A stretch of 64,000 nucleotides of DNA from Hydrogenimonas cancrithermarum (GTDB lineage Bacteria; Campylobacterota; Campylobacteria; Campylobacterales; Hydrogenimonadaceae): the NCBI RefSeq assembly GCF_030296055.1, contig NZ_AP027370.1, forward strand, positions 806,001-870,000, written 5' to 3'. The translations under genes were made by a program, and so were the position numbers. This document shows positions 17,950-26,089 of this stretch, one piece after another; positions within the stretch are counted from its first letter, which is position 1; the number at the start of each line of letters is the position of its first letter. The notes below the pieces were generated by a model. It was not told the DNA's origin. It searched no databases and worked only from the letters and a program-made list of their open reading frames with translations.

Positions 17950-19218
17950 TCAAGGGATCCACATTTCACCGATAAAAAGTCCCGCCCCCATGACGCCCAA
18001 TGTCAAAACGAAAAACTGTGTCATCCTCCAGCCCAGTTTAACCCCTCCGAGCCAGTAGACGATACCCAGTTTCACGAGGGAATTGACGACGGACGCGATA
18101 ACGATGCCGTTCATCGACGCGATCGTTTCGAGCCTCTCTTCTTTGGCCATCTGACTCAGCGAAAGTGTGATGGCATCCACATCGGTGATCCCTGAAAAGA
18201 GAGACACCACATAGACTCCGACATTCCCGTACCGTGTCTGCACGAATGCGATGGCTCCGTAAACGATACCGAAGAGTATGCCGAATTTGATCGCTTCGCT
18301 CAACTGCAGCGGATTTTTGGTGATCGCGGGGGCTTCGAACGTGATCTCCGCAGCCTTGGAGTGAATGTAGAGCCAGTAGCTGAAAGCCAAACCACTCAGA
18401 GCCGCCCCCATGTAAGCGGGCGTCAGACGCCAAGCCAACTCGGGATGGATAACGAACGCTTCGAAAAGGACACGGAAATACATGAAGGTCGAAGCGACCG
18501 CGATGCCTCCGGCATAATTGTTGATGAGCGTATACTGGTGCCGGAACATCCGTGAGAGCGAGATCGATACGGCCGTCGAAGAGATGAGCCCTCCCGCCGC
18601 ACCGGTCAAGAAGACGCCATGTTTTTGTCCCAAGACTTTTATCGCCACATAACCGATGAACGAGATGCCTGCGATGATGACGGCCATGAGCCAGGTTTTG
18701 TAGGGATTGAAGAGATGATAGGGTCCGACCATTTCGTCCGGCAGCACCGGAAGTACGATGAAGCTCATCGCCAGGAGCAAAGTCACGGCGTGAATGTCGG
18801 TTGGGCTGATATGGGTTTCGAACTGCTGTAGCCTCGGTTTGATTTCGAGCAGAACGATGATGACGACTCCGATGAAGATGGCGTAGTTTTCCAGATGATA
18901 CCACACCATCACTCCGAGAAAAAACGTGACCAATGCGGCGATCTGTGTCGTCATACCCCATTTGTTCTGCTGTTTCACTTTCATGATGTAAGAGATCGCG
19001 ACCATCGATGCGAAAACGAGGGTCGATGCGAGTACGAAACCATGAACGTACTTTTCGATCCAGCCGGAGAGGAACCCTCCCAACGCGATAAGTGCGAAAG
19101 TACGGCTTCCGGCGAAAGCCTGTTCCCCTTTGTAGAGATAGGTCATCGTACGCTGCATCCCGATCATGAATCCGAGTACCAGTACGATAAAAAGCGATTT
19201 CAGTATCGCATAATCCAC
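17950..19218 (-). CDS. MgtC/DUF4010-type membrane protein
   Basis: A 422-residue, strongly hydrophobic protein with about 12 membrane segments. The N-terminal region (LKSLFIVLVLGFMIGMQRTM, then GSRTFALIALGGFLSGWIEK) resembles the MgtC/SapB N-terminal domain, and the remainder (PYKTWLMAVIIAGISFIGYV, GAAGGLISSTAVSISLSRMF) resembles DUF4010. The GTG start is chosen because AAGGAGAG lies at ideal spacing. It is 63 bases downstream of the antiporter/ATPase fusion on the same strand. MgtC-type proteins are linked to Mg2+ limitation and membrane ATPase control, which makes a role with the fused pump plausible but unproved. Confidence 0.8.
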   Translation of the reverse strand: MDYAILKSLFIVLVLGFMIGMQRTMTYLYKGEQAFAGSRTFALIALGGFLSGWIEKYVHGFVLASTLVFASMVAISYIMKVKQQNKWGMTTQIAALVTFFLGVMVWYHLENYAIFIGVVIIVLLEIKPRLQQFETHISPTDIHAVTLLLAMSFIVLPVLPDEMVGPYHLFNPYKTWLMAVIIAGISFIGYVAIKVLGQKHGVFLTGAAGGLISSTAVSISLSRMFRHQYTLINNYAGGIAVASTFMYFRVLFEAFVIHPELAWRLTPAYMGAALSGLAFSYWLYIHSKAAEITFEAPAITKNPLQLSEAIKFGILFGIVYGAIAFVQTRYGNVGVYVVSLFSGITDVDAITLSLSQMAKEERLETIASMNGIVIASVVNSLVKLGIVYWLGGVKLGWRMTQFFVLTLGVMGAGLFIGEMWIP

Positions 19219-19281
19219 ATCACTCTCCTTCGATCGAAGAAACGAACTTCCTTTGGTATGACGCAATCGCCGTATTCCGTC

Positions 19282-22200
19282 TCAACTTCTCTTTTTCAGA
19301 ACCCACCACTCGAACGCTTTGTACAATTCTACCACGACAAAGATCGGAAGTGCCACTTCGAAGATGAGAAGCCAATCCTCCCATCGCAGCGGTACCGTAT
19401 GCAGAGCGTTTTGCAAAAACGGTACATAGACGGCAGCCACCTGCGCACCGACCGTCAACATCCACGCACCGAGCACCCACGGATTCGTAAAAAAACCGAT
19501 GACCGGTATCGGGGCATGCAGACTTCGGTAGTTGAAGACATTCATCTTTTCGAGAACGATGATGCCGGTAAAGGCGACTGTCTGCGCCAGTGCCACCGCT
19601 TCATGCTCCGGAAGGCCGGATGTGAGATAATGGTGGAAAAGCCAAAGTGAACCACCACCGATATAGCCACCAAGCAAAATGATCATCAAAATCCCGCGAA
19701 GCTCCAGAAACGGGGCGTTGACCGAATGGGGTGGCCGCTCCATGATCCCTTTTTCCGCCGGTTCGAGCCCGAGTGCCACAGCCGTCAATCCGTCTGTGAC
19801 GAGGTTCATCCACAAAATCTGTACCGGCAGCAGAATCAGCGGCCCTCCCAACAGGATGTTGACGAATATCGCGATCACCTCGCCTGTATTGGAAGAGAGA
19901 AGATAGGTAACGAATTTTTTGATGTTGTCATACTGTCGTCGACCCTCCTTGACGGCTCCCACGATCGAGGCGAAATTGTCATCCAACAAAATCATGTCGG
20001 CGGCTCCTTTGGCGACATCCGTTCCCCGCCGTCCCATGGCGATTCCGATGTCGGCTTGTTTGAGCGCCGGCGCATCGTTGACGCCATCCCCCGTCATCGC
20101 CGTAACCAGTCCCTCTCGCTGAAGGACTTTGACGATACGTAATTTGTCCTGGGGCGTGGTTCTGGCAAAGATGACACCCTCTTTGAGCGCCCTGCTCAGT
20201 TCTTCGTCCTCCATGCCGGCAAGTTCACTGCCGGTCACTGCCCGCGTCGCATCGAGTCCTACCTCCTTGGCGATCGCCAGTGCCGTCAACGGTGCGTCAC
20301 CGGTGATCATGACGACACGGATACCGGCTCTTTGTGCCGTACGAATCGCTTCGGGCACCTCCGGGCGCGGCGGGTCGATAATACCAACGACCCCCAACAG
20401 CGTCAAATCCTTTTCCACATCTTCGGGATCCAACTTCGTCTCGGGCGGCAACACCCGCTTGGCCATGGCGAGCGTCCGCAATCCACGTTTGGCCAGCTCG
20501 ACATAGCCCTCTTCGAAAGCTTTTCGCATATGTGTATCGAGCGGCTTCCTGTCGTTGCCGTCGAAATAGTGCGATGCACGCGCCAACAACACTTCGGGTG
20601 CCCCTTTGACATAAGCGACTTTCTGCCCTTTTTCCTCCACAATGACCGTCATCCGCTTACGTTCGGAATTGAACGAAAATTCACTGACGATTTTCGGCTC
20701 CCCGGGAACCAGCCAAGCTTTGTACGCCGCAACGATCAAAGAGGCTTCCGTCGGTTCTCCGGCGATTTTCCATCCATCTTTTTCTTTGCGTAAAGAAGCG
20801 TGGTTGCAGAGCAGCCCGGTTTTCAGAAGCAGCAACAGGTCTTTCCGCCCTTTGTAATTGACCCGTTCGCCATGCGTTTCGAAATGCCCGGCAGGATCGT
20901 ACCCGCTTCCGGTCACGTCGATCTCTCCATTGAACAGCCAGATCTTTTTGACCGTCATCTGGTTCTGTGTCAGAGTTCCCGTTTTGTCGGTACAGATGAC
21001 ATTGGCGCTTCCGAGATTTTCGGCCGCCTGAAGACGCCGAAGCAGTGCATGCCGGCGCACCATCGCCTTGACACCGAGCGCCAGCGTGATCGTCACGACG
21101 GCGGGAAGCCCTTCCGGTACGACGGCCACGGCAAGTGAAACGCCTGTGAGAAACATCTCCATCAGATCCTTGCCGAAAAGGTACCCTACGATCGCCACGA
21201 GTGCCGAAATGGCGACGGAGAGAATGCCGAGTTTCTTGCCTAGAAGCGCCAATCTCTTCTGAAGCGGTGTCTGTGCCTGCTTCACTTCACTGGTCAGTTT
21301 CGCAATCTTGCCGAACTCCGTATTCATTCCCGTTGCAACGACGATCCCTTTTGCGTAGCCGTTCGTAACGTTCGTGCCCATCCATGCCATGCTCCGCCGT
21401 TCGGCCAGTGGCGCCGCCTTCAGCACCGCTTTGACCGCTTTGGTTACGGAAACAGATTCGCCAGTGAGTGCCGATTCGTCGATTTTGAGATTGACCACCT
21501 CGATCAGTCGAAGATCGGCGGGAACCCGGTCGCCGATTTCGAGCAGTACGATATCGCCCGGTACCAGCATGGCCGCGTCGATTTCCGCCTCTTTGCCGTC
21601 ACGAAGCACCTTGCATCGGGGCGAAAGCATCTTCTGCAACGCTTCGATCGCCTTTTCGGCTTTGAACTCCTGTACGAATCCCAAAATACCGTTGAGAATC
21701 ACGATCGCCAGAATCGTAACGGCATCGCCCATCTCCCCGATCGCAAACGCGATCGCCGCCGCCGCCAGGAGAATAAGGATCAGTACATCGGTAAACTGCC
21801 GCAACAGAATTTTGTACCATCTCTCTTGCCGAGCCGCTTCGATTCGGTTGGGGCCGAATGTCTCGAGGCGCCTCTTCGCTTCGTCGACGGACAAACCATT
21901 TTTGGGATCGGTTCGAAGCAGTTGAAGGAGCGCATCGACCGGTTCCGCATGCCAGGCGACGGGAGCTTCGGCGATCGGTTCGGTTTCCGATGTAACGGGA
22001 GGGGCGATCTCTCCCACCAACACAGGACGCCACCTCGCGACAAGCATGGAGAATGTCAGCGGCACGATAATCGTCGAAACCGAGGAGGCCGCTACAAGTG
22101 CCGTGAAGAGTTCGATATCGATCAACTGTGCATCGAGCAGAAGTTTAGCGACGATGATCTCCGTCGTCAATCGGGCATTGAGGCCGATACCGATCGTCCA

Positions 22201-23220
22201 TGCCTCTTTGACAGTGAGCTTCTTCATCGGCACCATCAAAAAAATACCGACGATTTTACCTACGAAGGCCGCCAAAAAGAGCAAAATCGCCAATTCAGGC
22301 GCATCGATCAGCCCTTTCAGATCGACACTTATTCCGACCCAAAGAAAAAAAACGATGCCGAAAAATCCGTAACCAATAGCCCGTATCGCACGGGTCGCAC
22401 GTTCCCCCGCCACCCCCGCATCGTCAAAGACGGGATGCATCAGTATCCCCGCCACGATGGCGCCAACTACCAGGCCGAGATCGGCATATTCGGCAAACCC
22501 GCCAAAGATGAAAAGCGTAATGATCATCAGCATAATCAGATTGGAGACTTTGATCCGGGTCCAGTGTGAAAGCGGTATCAGAACATAACGGCGGGCGAAC
22601 CAGGCCACAATGGTGAAAATCGCGATATTAAGTGCGATATCGACGATCTCCTTCGTATCGTTCGTAATCACACCCGTTTTTGTGCCAATCCAGACCGACA
22701 CAAAAGCGACCAGAAAAACTTCGATGACATCGTCTAGCACACCGGCTCCAACAATATAGTTGCCCACTTTGGTCCGGATAAGATCGAACTCGTCGAGAAT
22801 CGGAACGATGACCGCCTCGGCAGTCGGCATACGGGTAATTCCGATGACGAATGCCAATAACCACCCATATCCGAGCCAAAGCATAACGCCGACCCCCATC
22901 ATAAACGGGACAACGGTGTTGAGCAGCGTCGCGAGAACGATGTCGCCGCTTTGGCTACGCATCTCCTTCATATCGATCTGCAGGCCAATGAAAAAGAGGA
23001 GAAAAAGGACGCCCAGATCCGCCAAAACGGTAAAAATATCGCCATTTAAGCCCGTCGTCAGAATCTCTCCAATCGCAGTATAGTGAAGCCCCATTGCAAC
23101 GAAAAGCGCCGCGAGAATCCCAGGAATTTTCAGGCGTTCGAAAAAACCGGCAAGAAAATAGGTAAGGCCGAATAGAAGAGAGAGCAGTAACAAAAATTCA
23201 CCCAACACTTGATCATTCAT
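19282..23220 (-). CDS. fusion of CPA2-type cation:proton antiporter and Ca2+-type P-type ATPase
   Basis: A single uninterrupted 1312-residue ORF. Residues 1-395 are a Kef/CPA2-like antiporter with about 12 membrane segments and the paired acidic residues Asp163/Asp164 in GAGVLDDVIEV. After a Pro/Glu-rich linker (about 396-422) comes a complete P2-type ATPase: N-terminal cation-ATPase domain from about 423, TGES near 588, VPEGLP in helix M4 (Glu703), phosphorylation site DKTGT (Asp745), TGDGVNDAPAL hinge, SSNTGEVIAIF in M5 and WMNLVTDG in M6. The M4/M5/M6 residues (Glu, Asn/Glu, Asn/Thr/Asp) match the Ca2+ sites of SERCA/PacL-type pumps. No TrkA-N domain is attached to the antiporter. No frameshift is involved and the start has an AGGA site. 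Ca2+ export coupled to antiport is inferred. Confidence 0.9.
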   Translation of the reverse strand: MNDQVLGEFLLLLSLLFGLTYFLAGFFERLKIPGILAALFVAMGLHYTAIGEILTTGLNGDIFTVLADLGVLFLLFFIGLQIDMKEMRSQSGDIVLATLLNTVVPFMMGVGVMLWLGYGWLLAFVIGITRMPTAEAVIVPILDEFDLIRTKVGNYIVGAGVLDDVIEVFLVAFVSVWIGTKTGVITNDTKEIVDIALNIAIFTIVAWFARRYVLIPLSHWTRIKVSNLIMLMIITLFIFGGFAEYADLGLVVGAIVAGILMHPVFDDAGVAGERATRAIRAIGYGFFGIVFFLWVGISVDLKGLIDAPELAILLFLAAFVGKIVGIFLMVPMKKLTVKEAWTIGIGLNARLTTEIIVAKLLLDAQLIDIELFTALVAASSVSTIIVPLTFSMLVARWRPVLVGEIAPPVTSETEPIAEAPVAWHAEPVDALLQLLRTDPKNGLSVDEAKRRLETFGPNRIEAARQERWYKILLRQFTDVLILILLAAAAIAFAIGEMGDAVTILAIVILNGILGFVQEFKAEKAIEALQKMLSPRCKVLRDGKEAEIDAAMLVPGDIVLLEIGDRVPADLRLIEVVNLKIDESALTGESVSVTKAVKAVLKAAPLAERRSMAWMGTNVTNGYAKGIVVATGMNTEFGKIAKLTSEVKQAQTPLQKRLALLGKKLGILSVAISALVAIVGYLFGKDLMEMFLTGVSLAVAVVPEGLPAVVTITLALGVKAMVRRHALLRRLQAAENLGSANVICTDKTGTLTQNQMTVKKIWLFNGEIDVTGSGYDPAGHFETHGERVNYKGRKDLLLLLKTGLLCNHASLRKEKDGWKIAGEPTEASLIVAAYKAWLVPGEPKIVSEFSFNSERKRMTVIVEEKGQKVAYVKGAPEVLLARASHYFDGNDRKPLDTHMRKAFEEGYVELAKRGLRTLAMAKRVLPPETKLDPEDVEKDLTLLGVVGIIDPPRPEVPEAIRTAQRAGIRVVMITGDAPLTALAIAKEVGLDATRAVTGSELAGMEDEELSRALKEGVIFARTTPQDKLRIVKVLQREGLVTAMTGDGVNDAPALKQADIGIAMGRRGTDVAKGAADMILLDDNFASIVGAVKEGRRQYDNIKKFVTYLLSSNTGEVIAIFVNILLGGPLILLPVQILWMNLVTDGLTAVALGLEPAEKGIMERPPHSVNAPFLELRGILMIILLGGYIGGGSLWLFHHYLTSGLPEHEAVALAQTVAFTGIIVLEKMNVFNYRSLHAPIPVIGFFTNPWVLGAWMLTVGAQVAAVYVPFLQNALHTVPLRWEDWLLIFEVALPIFVVVELYKAFEWWVLKKRS

Positions 23221-23278: not shown

Positions 23279-23953
23279 TCAAGACCCTGAAACGGCTGTG
23301 GCAAACGCGCCAAATATCTTCCGGCTGTGCCACGCATAGGGCATGAACTCAGGATGCCATTGCAATCCCAATACAAACCTTCCCTCTCGCTGTTCGATCG
23401 CCTGAACGATACCATTACGATCATACGCGGCCACGTGAAGCCCTTCTCCGATCCTGTCGACGGCCTGATGGTGAAGGGCGTTCACTTTCAGTACCGGAAC
23501 ACCGACAATCTGATGAAGGCGCGATACCCGTTCGATCGTTACCTCCCGCAGCGGCAAAGGTGTTCTTGGATGTGGATGTTCGAGCGGAAGATCTTCGATG
23601 TGAGGATGCAGTGTTCCATGATGAAAAAGGTTGATAAGCTGCATACCCCGGCAGATACCCATCACGGGAAGGTTTTCCTGTTGTGCTCTTTCCAGGAGAA
23701 AAAGTTCCATCTCATCGCGTTTGGGATCGCTTTTCACGATGGATGGGTGCTCGTATCCTCCGTACGTGGAGGGATCGATGTCGATACCTCCCGTTATCAA
23801 TACGCCGTCCATTCGTATACCGGGGTCCCATGAGTGAGGATGAAAGAAACGGGCTTTCAGCCCATACAGCGCCAGCAGAAAACGGCTCATATACCATGCC
23901 GTCCGACTCCCCCGTTGGGAGCCTGTAACGATGACTACCCTTTTTCGACCCAC
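23279..23953 (-). CDS. class I glutamine amidotransferase / gamma-glutamyl hydrolase (peptidase C26)
   Basis: About 224 residues with a glutamine-amidotransferase fold. Visible are the oxyanion region DGVLITGGIDIDPSTYGG, the nucleophile Cys in MGICRGMQLINL, a His in NALHHQAVDRIG and the His/Glu pair in LGLQWHPEFM, matching the PuuD-like C26 family, which cleaves gamma-glutamyl amide bonds. I chose the GTG start because GGAGGTGA lies six bases upstream; an in-frame ATG seven codons earlier is possible. The gene overlaps the amidoligase 3' end by 19 bases, so the two are translationally coupled and probably act in one pathway of gamma-glutamyl amide synthesis and trimming. Confidence 0.88.
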   Translation of the reverse strand: MGRKRVVIVTGSQRGSRTAWYMSRFLLALYGLKARFFHPHSWDPGIRMDGVLITGGIDIDPSTYGGYEHPSIVKSDPKRDEMELFLLERAQQENLPVMGICRGMQLINLFHHGTLHPHIEDLPLEHPHPRTPLPLREVTIERVSRLHQIVGVPVLKVNALHHQAVDRIGEGLHVAAYDRNGIVQAIEQREGRFVLGLQWHPEFMPYAWHSRKIFGAFATAVSGS

Positions 23954-24945
23954 GCCTTCACCTCCTTCAGCCATTGATCTTTTTGAAAAAAGTGAAACGG
24001 TGAATCGAGATACTCGAGAAATCGGTCACCGAGCCTTTTCATCGCCACCTCGTCACTCGCCAGCCTCTCGACAAGCACCCAGCTGTTCCATGCGTCACAG
24101 GTACACCATGCAGCTTCATCGACACGGGAGTTCGGCAATCGGTAGTGATAGGTCGGGCGTGCCGATATCTTTTCTCCCTCCATCTTCTCCATGACCCGGT
24201 CGATGTCGATCCATGCCAGCAGCGGCAGCAGATCGAGGGCCCGGTTTCGGGTCGGGTTGTACGCCAGATAATCGTCGATAAGCTGCGGCATTGTCGGGTC
24301 GTAAGCGGAATCGAGTACCCGTTCGATATACCCTTTGTCGAACGGATCGATGTAAGGTGTCAGACGCCGCGTCATATCGGGCTTGATCGTTTCGACAAGA
24401 TAATCGTAAAGCAGAAAAAAGGCTCGAAGCGTCTTGAGTATCTCATCCACCGTGATCCGCGCCGCTTCGGGATTGATATGAAATCCGAATGCATAGAGAG
24501 GATCGGCTTTCGTCCCCATCGCGCCGTAACACCGCAGTGCCTCTTTGACCGTTTCGATCACATCGATTCTGTCCAGTGGAAGAGGTGAAGTCGAAACTTC
24601 GTACGGAACGACCGTCTCACTCAAATCCGCGATGAACCGCTCGATCGCTTCGATGGTATCTTTTTCGAGTGCCTGATCGAGCCCGATATGGTGGAGCCAA
24701 TGCTCGAGTCCCGACTCCACGAGAAACTGAAAATCGAGAACGAGTGTAAAAGTTCCATACTCGGTATCCCGGATTTTGTAGTGGTAGGGGTTGATGACAT
24801 CGACTCTGCCGCCCACTGTCTTCAAGATGACAGCGGCACTCTTTGTCAGCGTCAATCCCGCATACTCGAGTTCGAAACCGACACTTCTGAGCTCTCCCTG
24901 GGCATTGGTCCGCATCGGCGGCTGTAAAAATCTCTCAAGCATCAT
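23935..24945 (-). CDS. amidoligase-family (glutamine-synthetase-like) enzyme
   Basis: About 336 residues of the COOH-NH2 ligase 'putative amidoligase' family. Recognisable are the metal-binding acidic strand VGFELEYAG, KIRDTEYGTFTLVLD, VPYEVSTSPLPLDRID and the His motif YAFGFHINPEA, all typical of the glutamine-synthetase-like fold. These enzymes use ATP to join an amine to a carboxylate; substrates are mostly unknown. The coupling to a C26-type amidotransferase is a documented genomic theme for the family. The start is chosen at the first ATG of MMLERF; it has no ribosome-binding site, but TATAAT lies six bases before it, inside the end of the flavoprotein gene. An in-frame GTG five codons earlier is less likely. 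Confidence 0.85.
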   Translation of the reverse strand: MMLERFLQPPMRTNAQGELRSVGFELEYAGLTLTKSAAVILKTVGGRVDVINPYHYKIRDTEYGTFTLVLDFQFLVESGLEHWLHHIGLDQALEKDTIEAIERFIADLSETVVPYEVSTSPLPLDRIDVIETVKEALRCYGAMGTKADPLYAFGFHINPEAARITVDEILKTLRAFFLLYDYLVETIKPDMTRRLTPYIDPFDKGYIERVLDSAYDPTMPQLIDDYLAYNPTRNRALDLLPLLAWIDIDRVMEKMEGEKISARPTYHYRLPNSRVDEAAWCTCDAWNSWVLVERLASDEVAMKRLGDRFLEYLDSPFHFFQKDQWLKEVKAWVEKG

Positions 24946-24951
24946 AATTAA

Positions 24952-24957
24952 ATTATA
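24952..24957 (-). promoter_or_regulatory. -10 box giving a probable leaderless amidoligase mRNA
   Basis: TATAAT on the minus strand overlaps the last codons of the upstream flavoprotein gene and ends six bases before the amidoligase ATG. No Shine-Dalgarno is present, so an internal promoter making a leaderless amidoligase-C26 transcript is plausible. Confidence 0.5.
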
Positions 24958-26089
24958 CACTTTTTGCGGCGACGACGGCTGAAGAGAAAGCCCATTGAAA
25001 GTTGTAGCCTCCCAGCCGTCCGGTTACATCGACAACCTCGCCCGCGAAATAGAGCCCGTCCACCAGACGGCTCTGCATCGTCTCCGGATCGATTTCATCC
25101 GTCGCTACCCCTCCTTTGGTCACCTCCGCTTTGGCATAGCCGAAGGTACCGGCCGGTGCGAATGCATAGGACTTTAAAAGAGAGAGGCGCTGTTTCTGCC
25201 CTTCCCTCATCGAACGGTACGGAATATTCGGCAGTGCAAGCGCACTGAAAAAGGCTTTGACAAACCTTTTTGGAAGCGGGATCTGCGAAGCGGCCGTTTT
25301 GGCAGAAGAGCCAAAAAGAGATTTGAATCTTCGCCCCGGAAGAAAATCGACGGTGATTTTTCCCTGGTTCCAGTAAAGCGAAGCATCGAGCAACACAGGG
25401 CCACTGACACCCCTGTGAGCGAAGAGAATATCGCCTTCGAGCAGGCGCCGCCCAACCTGAACGGTCACGGAAAGCGAAAGGCCGCTGAGCTCTTTCATCC
25501 ATACCTGTTCGGGTTGAAGCGTCAGCCCGACAAGGGCGGGGCGCAGCGGTACGATTCCGTGCCCGAACGATTCGGCAATTTCGTAACCGATACCGGTCGC
25601 TCCGACGCTCGAATAACTCAACCCCCCGGTGGCGATCAACAGCTTTTTGGCGTAAACCTCTCCTTTGGAAGTTTCGACGACGAAAAGTTCTCCCGGTTTT
25701 TGGGCTCCAAAGATCTCCGTTTCGTACGATATTTCTACCGATGGCGCTGCTCGAAGCAGCAGGTCCGTCAACGCTTGTGCACGATCGGGACAGAAGTACT
25801 GGCACTCTTTCCGCACGACGGGTTCGAGACCATGATGACGCAAAAAAGCGATCAGCGCTTCGTTGTCGAATCGGTTGAGAACCTTTTCAACGAATTTTGG
25901 ATCGCCTAGATAATAAGAGGATGAGAGATTTTGGTTGGTGATATTGCAGCGTCCGCCGCCCGAGATTGCGATCTTGGCGCCCGGACGGGAATTGTGTTCG
26001 AGAATGAGCACCTTTCGCGAGCGTTGGTGGGCGGCAGCCATCAGGCCCGCCGCACCGGCTCCCAGGATAATCAGATCATACGGCAACAC
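24953..26089 (-). CDS. BaiN/HI0933-family NAD(P)/FAD-dependent oxidoreductase
   Basis: A 378-residue flavoprotein. The N-terminal dinucleotide fold IILGAGAAGLMAAAH is followed by the family signature SGGGRCNITN near residue 45, a mid-protein LLIATGGLSYSSVGATG and the C-terminal FAD motif DGLYFAGEVVDVTGRLGGYN. Members include BaiN and are often mis-named aminoacetone oxidases; the physiological substrate is usually unknown. Its 3' end carries the probable promoter of the amidoligase gene, and it lies three bases downstream of the helicase gene, so it may be co-transcribed with that. Confidence 0.9.
   Translation of the reverse strand: MLPYDLIILGAGAAGLMAAAHQRSRKVLILEHNSRPGAKIAISGGGRCNITNQNLSSSYYLGDPKFVEKVLNRFDNEALIAFLRHHGLEPVVRKECQYFCPDRAQALTDLLLRAAPSVEISYETEIFGAQKPGELFVVETSKGEVYAKKLLIATGGLSYSSVGATGIGYEIAESFGHGIVPLRPALVGLTLQPEQVWMKELSGLSLSVTVQVGRRLLEGDILFAHRGVSGPVLLDASLYWNQGKITVDFLPGRRFKSLFGSSAKTAASQIPLPKRFVKAFFSALALPNIPYRSMREGQKQRLSLLKSYAFAPAGTFGYAKAEVTKGGVATDEIDPETMQSRLVDGLYFAGEVVDVTGRLGGYNFQWAFSSAVVAAKSV

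Follow-up and report, generated by a model that had tools for sequence, protein, structure and literature searches.

Structure of the fusion locus

The locus lies in a stretch of 64,000 nucleotides analysed as a whole (the window), where one open reading frame (ORF) on the reverse strand starts with ATG and runs for 1312 codons without interruption (Table 1). As judged by Pfam, the 1312-residue product consists of a Na_H_Exchanger domain (PF00999, residues 19-395, 144.9 bits against a gathering cutoff of 26.2), which places it in the CPA superfamily, followed by Cation_ATPase_N (423-491), E1-E2_ATPase (530-723), Hydrolase, Cation_ATPase and Cation_ATPase_C (1127-1303) domains, each above its cutoff. 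The ATPase domain set is complete from residue 423 to 1303. The motifs listed in the preliminary description were all found where claimed: D163/D164 in the antiporter, and TGES at 586-589, DKTGT at D745 and TGDGVNDAPAL at 1043-1053 in the ATPase.

Table 1. Position of the fusion gene, its functional residues and the partner gene in the window.
Feature	Position	Strand	Basis
Fusion gene, CPA2 antiporter - linker - P2A ATPase	19282..23220	-	ORF, Pfam domains, 25 further intact copies among genomes of the order
Antiporter half, residues 1-395	22036..23220	-	PF00999 at 19-395; NapA 4bwz best solved relative
TM4 signature T(R)MPTAEAV, residues 129-137	22810..22836	-	Holds invariant Glu135
E135, invariant Glu in unwound TM4	22816..22818	-	38/38; V or I in NapA and same-order CPA2s
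D163-D164, DD ion site	22729..22734	-	Aligns with NapA D156-D157; 38/38, ATPase-less copies included
K322	22255..22257	-	Aligns with NapA K305; invariant, 38/38
Linker, residues 396-422	21955..22035	-	Variable length and sequence by alignment; low pLDDT
P2A ATPase half, residues 423-1312	19285..21954	-	Pfam; best NCBIfam TIGR01522
E703, SERCA E309 equivalent, M4	21112..21114	-	PEGLP motif; 33/33
D745, phosphorylated Asp of DKTGT	20986..20988	-	33/33
M5-M6 ligands N1111, E1114, N1139, T1142, D1143	19792..19890	-	SERCA1 alignment; 33/33
E1224, SERCA E908 equivalent, M8	19549..19551	-	Alignment to SERCA1 (weakly scoring stretch); 33/33
MgtC-DUF4010 partner	17950..19218	-	PF13194 and PF02308; start by homology

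A search of 60 relatives returned ten more full-length fusions. When 399 genomes of the host's order were searched with the antiporter half, matches were obtained in 36 genomes from five families, and in 26 of the 399, the host included, the fused frame is intact and 1300 amino acids or longer. The other 25 intact fusions contain no stops and are 58-86% identical to the window protein, and several of the carriers have single-contig assemblies. A few copies are frameshifted or split (loci L082, L098 and L108), a point in favour of an artefact of assembly or annotation, with a stop missing between two genes. However, given 26 intact copies at 58-100% identity, several of them in single-contig assemblies, the chance that the fusion is such an artefact is negligible. 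The conserved full-length frames also exclude a frameshift or stop between about residues 395 and 425, and the uninterrupted 1312-codon fusion proposed from the sequence of the window is thus confirmed by the ORF, by Pfam and by the 25 further genomes.

A primary pump and a secondary exchanger are as a rule two separate proteins. No published description of a CPA-P-type ATPase fusion was found in the open literature searched. Both halves belong to known families; the architecture, the series of variants described below and the signature of the antiporter subfamily are, as far as checked, new.

The halves are joined by a linker that varies from 20 to 30 residues across the aligned copies. In a structure model of residues 1-1196 (truncated and built from a shallow alignment; pTM 0.51) the linker is predicted to be disordered, with pLDDT below 50 at residues 404-419.

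The antiporter half

The nearest solved structure to the antiporter is NapA (4bwz, 2e-15), followed by KefC. Under the published rule for CPA2 proteins, position 5 is not Glu and position 8 is Lys (PMC6181914); these positions are A159 and K322 here, supporting the earlier assignment as CPA2-like. The score with the NCBIfam CPA2 model TIGR00932, 96.7 bits, lies below the cutoff of 238.3. Positions 6, 7 and 8 are occupied by D163, D164 and K322 in all 38 copies. According to Masrati et al., a D-D-K triad predicts electrogenic exchange (PMC6181914), and the antiporter is on this basis probably electrogenic.

The label 'Kef-type' given in the preliminary description was rejected, since KefC has a QD motif and a C-terminal RCK domain (PMC11150392), whereas the fusion protein has a DD motif and no RCK domain, with NapA as its closest solved relative.

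Where the other CPA2s of the order read TATSIGIT (NapA and the order CPA2s share ATS(I/V)GI), the fusion family has the TM4 signature given in Table 1, which also differs from KefC and may mark an undescribed CPA2 subfamily. A further family-specific glutamate, E167, lies one turn from D163 by the DD motif and has no counterpart in NapA or the same-order CPA2s. The antiporter would be an exporter of Na+ or K+ driven by the proton gradient, the ion identity being not safely assigned because the invariant E135 and E167 lack a NapA counterpart.

The ATPase half

The complete A, N, P and M domains together with TGES, DKTGT and TGDGVNDAP place this half among the P2A ATPases. The best NCBIfam models were both missed narrowly, TIGR01522 (PMR1) with 771 bits against a cutoff of 798 and TIGR01116 (SERCA) with 667 against 703. 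In a residue-by-residue alignment, N1111, E1114, N1139, T1142 and D1143 match SERCA1 N768, E771, N796, T799 and D800, and with the equivalents of E309 and E908 all seven ligands of the SERCA-like two-site type are present. The side-chain Ca2+ ligands of sites I and II are invariant in all 33 fused or paired ATPases; of the 12 unlinked P2A ATPases that these searches also gave, only three keep the D800 equivalent. Given this invariance, the C-terminal half is by its residues a Ca2+-type P2A ATPase with both SERCA Ca2+ sites, in agreement with the Ca2+-type P2 assignment made earlier.

The MgtC-DUF4010 gene

The next gene on the strand encodes, as previously proposed, an MgtC/DUF4010 protein, with both domains above cutoff (PF13194, 204.1 against 30 bits; PF02308, 60.8 against 31.4 bits). 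The longest form of its ORF covers 17950-19266, with a TTG at 19266; alignment with relatives indicates that the likely start is instead the GTG at 19218. The predicted structure is of moderate confidence (pLDDT 77.6, pTM 0.62), and no solved structure matched its fold at E <= 0.001.

For 22 of the 23 fused loci measured in relatives, the likely DUF4010 start, picked by homology, lies no more than about 30 nt from the stop of the fusion gene, which is strong evidence that the two would be read from one transcript. A promoter and terminator scan gave a signal near chance. Among the 36 genomes with the antiporter, 24 have the fusion with DUF4010 directly downstream, and two have the fusion with DUF4010 about 1.7 kb off, beyond genes on the opposite strand. 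Four have an antiporter without ATPase and an adjoining DUF4010 gene, one has the antiporter alone with no DUF4010, one has a split antiporter/ATPase pair, three have a broken fusion with DUF4010 still next to it, and in one the locus ends at a contig edge. The DUF4010 gene adjoining the broken or frameshifted copies at L082, L098 and L108 (genomes G319, G277 and G065) is itself intact. Farther neighbours (GATase, amidoligase and DUF2062) are not conserved outside the genus. Upstream of the fusion gene in the window (23279-26089, reverse strand) lies a cluster of GATase (peptidase C26), amidoligase-like and FAD-binding genes that is common within the genus.

A lone DUF4010 gene persists in some fusion-free genomes and is nested in the same DUF4010 clade. 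Of 39 antiporter-free DUF4010 loci sampled, only eight had an ATPase within four genes, and a rule that DUF4010 always stands by ATPases was therefore rejected. A P3A H+-ATPase of the host genome (TIGR01647, 924 bits, cutoff 615) has a second, distant DUF4010 gene one gene behind it (L167 4187-9034; G000:C1 about 81186-86033). Pairs of this kind adjoin directly in related genomes, and at L156, L158, L164, L179 and L185 DUF4010 stands right beside a P-type ATPase. The P3A neighbour lends independent support to a link between DUF4010 and membrane ion pumps. The poorly understood MgtC/DUF4010 family is thereby tied to defined transporters of two kinds, the antiporter-Ca2+ pump here and a P3A H+ pump at the other locus.

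The compact module suggested in the preliminary description stands as a conserved two-gene unit. Control of the ATPase by MgtC/DUF4010 is not the simplest reading of it, because DUF4010 remains with the antiporter also where the ATPase has been lost. We infer that DUF4010 serves as an accessory protein in the membrane, either to the antiporter or in local ion homeostasis.

Origin and loss of the fusion

Outside the order, the antiporter and ATPase occur without DUF4010 as separate adjacent or overlapping genes, in three of 136 Aquificota genomes and in MAGs titled Deltaproteobacteria. Split pairs were also found inside the phylum, in a Sulfurimonas MAG and in the genome G134. All linked ATPases, fused and split alike, group in a single clade (100/100 support) that excludes the unlinked P2As. 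The split copies are interspersed in the antiporter tree, and fusion or fission would therefore have occurred at least twice. The best reading is an ancient operon pair that became fused into one polypeptide in Campylobacterota.

ATPase-less antiporters are nested within the fused copies in at least three places of the antiporter tree, indicating at least three losses of the ATPase half with the antiporter kept. They retain every key residue and usually stand with DUF4010. Their dN/dS of about 0.05-0.11, a value that is itself only rough with dS near saturation, points to strong purifying selection. The order of retention is thus DUF4010 > antiporter > ATPase.

In the Aquificota (L071, L192 and L193), genes for a further P-type ATPase, an amino-acid-permease-like transporter and an Nramp transporter are clustered with the pair. 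The lone antiporter of L103 is likewise followed by a similar permease. At L070, a universal stress protein (Usp) gene (1742-2203) sits between the split antiporter and ATPase genes. Carriage on mobile elements was rejected, as the antiporters in plasmid records were all distant ones with less than 60% identity and the viral contigs yielded nothing but ATPase relatives of 38% identity or less. The Ligilactobacillus acidipiscis plasmid pLAC2 (L220 3944-8059) carries an ordinary NapA-type antiporter followed by a P-type ATPase on the same strand. This pairing apparently arose independently, because its products are only about 24% (antiporter) and 35% (ATPase) identical to the fusion halves.

Functional interpretation

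The protein is rather probably a bifunctional cation exporter, in which a Ca2+ pump and a NapA-like exchanger work largely independently and share dosage, place and control. By residue homology, the C-terminal P2A half would export two Ca2+ for each ATP in countertransport with H+, and the N-terminal half would export Na+ or K+ on the proton gradient, probably electrogenically. Both exports would run in parallel, the independence of the halves being suggested by their evolution. The benefit of fusion would lie in a fixed 1:1 dosage, co-localisation and common control, for which obligate coupling is not required, and a homodimeric antiporter would carry two pumps.

The preliminary description had proposed that the halves couple their fluxes or compensate each other's charge. 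In its strict form, this would mean a single complex in which the antiporter offsets, ion for ion, the charge or protons that the pump moves. The adjacent or fused pair across phyla fits this, as does the reasoning that Ca2+ pumping is electrogenic and that a 2H+:1Na+ exchanger moves net charge oppositely (from PMC6181914). However, the variable linker with its predicted disorder, the split genes elsewhere and the recurrent loss of the ATPase (three or more events, the antiporter remaining under selection) argue against a coupling, mechanical or by ion channelling, that is obligate. Protons are unlikely to be balanced directly, since a normal proton gradient would drive them inward through both halves. 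Such tight coupling is, on balance, unlikely, though a fused copy could still couple its halves. The pairing across phyla suggests some functional link, which 'co-regulation' would explain only loosely.

The ATPase is attached just past the last antiporter helix, which is the place of the RCK domain in KefC (PMC11150392), and a regulatory influence of the ATPase on the antiporter is therefore possible. That the ATPase is mainly regulatory, its E1/E2 motions gating the antiporter as RCK gates KefC, is nevertheless very improbable, as every transport ligand and every catalytic residue that a working pump needs is kept (33/33), ATPase-less antiporters persist and the two are separate genes in other phyla. 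A different division of labour, in which both halves carry Ca2+, the Ca2+/H+ exchanger with low and the pump with high affinity, would give a role to the invariant E135 in the TM4 crossover and to E167, both absent from NapA and same-order CPA2s. We regard it as improbable, since CPA2s of known function carry monovalent ions and the D-D-K triad is of the Na+/H+ exchanger type (PMC6181914). There is likewise a small chance that the protein is a hybrid primary/secondary transporter, with a P-type pump and an elevator-type antiporter sharing a substrate or cycle in one chain; a Ca2+ pump with a Ca2+/H+ exchanger, Glu135 of TM4 making the CPA2 half divalent-selective, would be an example. If the hybrid existed, the fused, split and ATPase-less variants would form a ready-made series for testing pump-exchanger coupling. 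A natural single-chain pump-exchanger with unfused pairs and ATPase-less versions makes the question of physical coupling directly testable.

Comparison with known systems

Salmonella MgtC inhibits the F1Fo ATP synthase, to which it binds, and is co-encoded with the P-type ATPase MgtB (PMC6658541, PMC3641672). The mgtC-mgtB operon thus resembles the present locus in combining an MgtC-family gene with a P-type ATPase. The differences are the extra DUF4010 domain of the partner protein here, the Ca2+ type of the ATPase and its fusion to an antiporter, and the retention of DUF4010 beside the antiporter after loss of the ATPase.

Among antiporters, the electrogenic Na+/H+ exchanger NapA of Thermus, also a CPA2, shares the sequence family, the DD motif and the lysine equivalent to K305. 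Its TM4 crossover reads LVATSVGI as compared with RMPTAEAV in the fusion, which further has the invariant E135 and E167 and the attached pump. The K+/H+ exchanger KefC likewise consists of a CPA2 transporter followed by a C-terminal module on the cytosolic side, but combines QD with RCK where the fusion combines DD with a whole ATPase (PMC11150392).

The ATPase half has all domains of the P2A pumps SERCA1, LMCA1 and SPCA1, with TGES, DKTGT and TGDGVNDAPAL, and the SERCA ligands of both sites; unlike these pumps, it bears an N-terminal antiporter. LMCA1 has one Ca2+ site, site II, its site I being filled by Arg795 (PMC11977196), as opposed to the two of the fusion ATPase, and the M5 site I motif missing in SPCA1 is present in the fusion.
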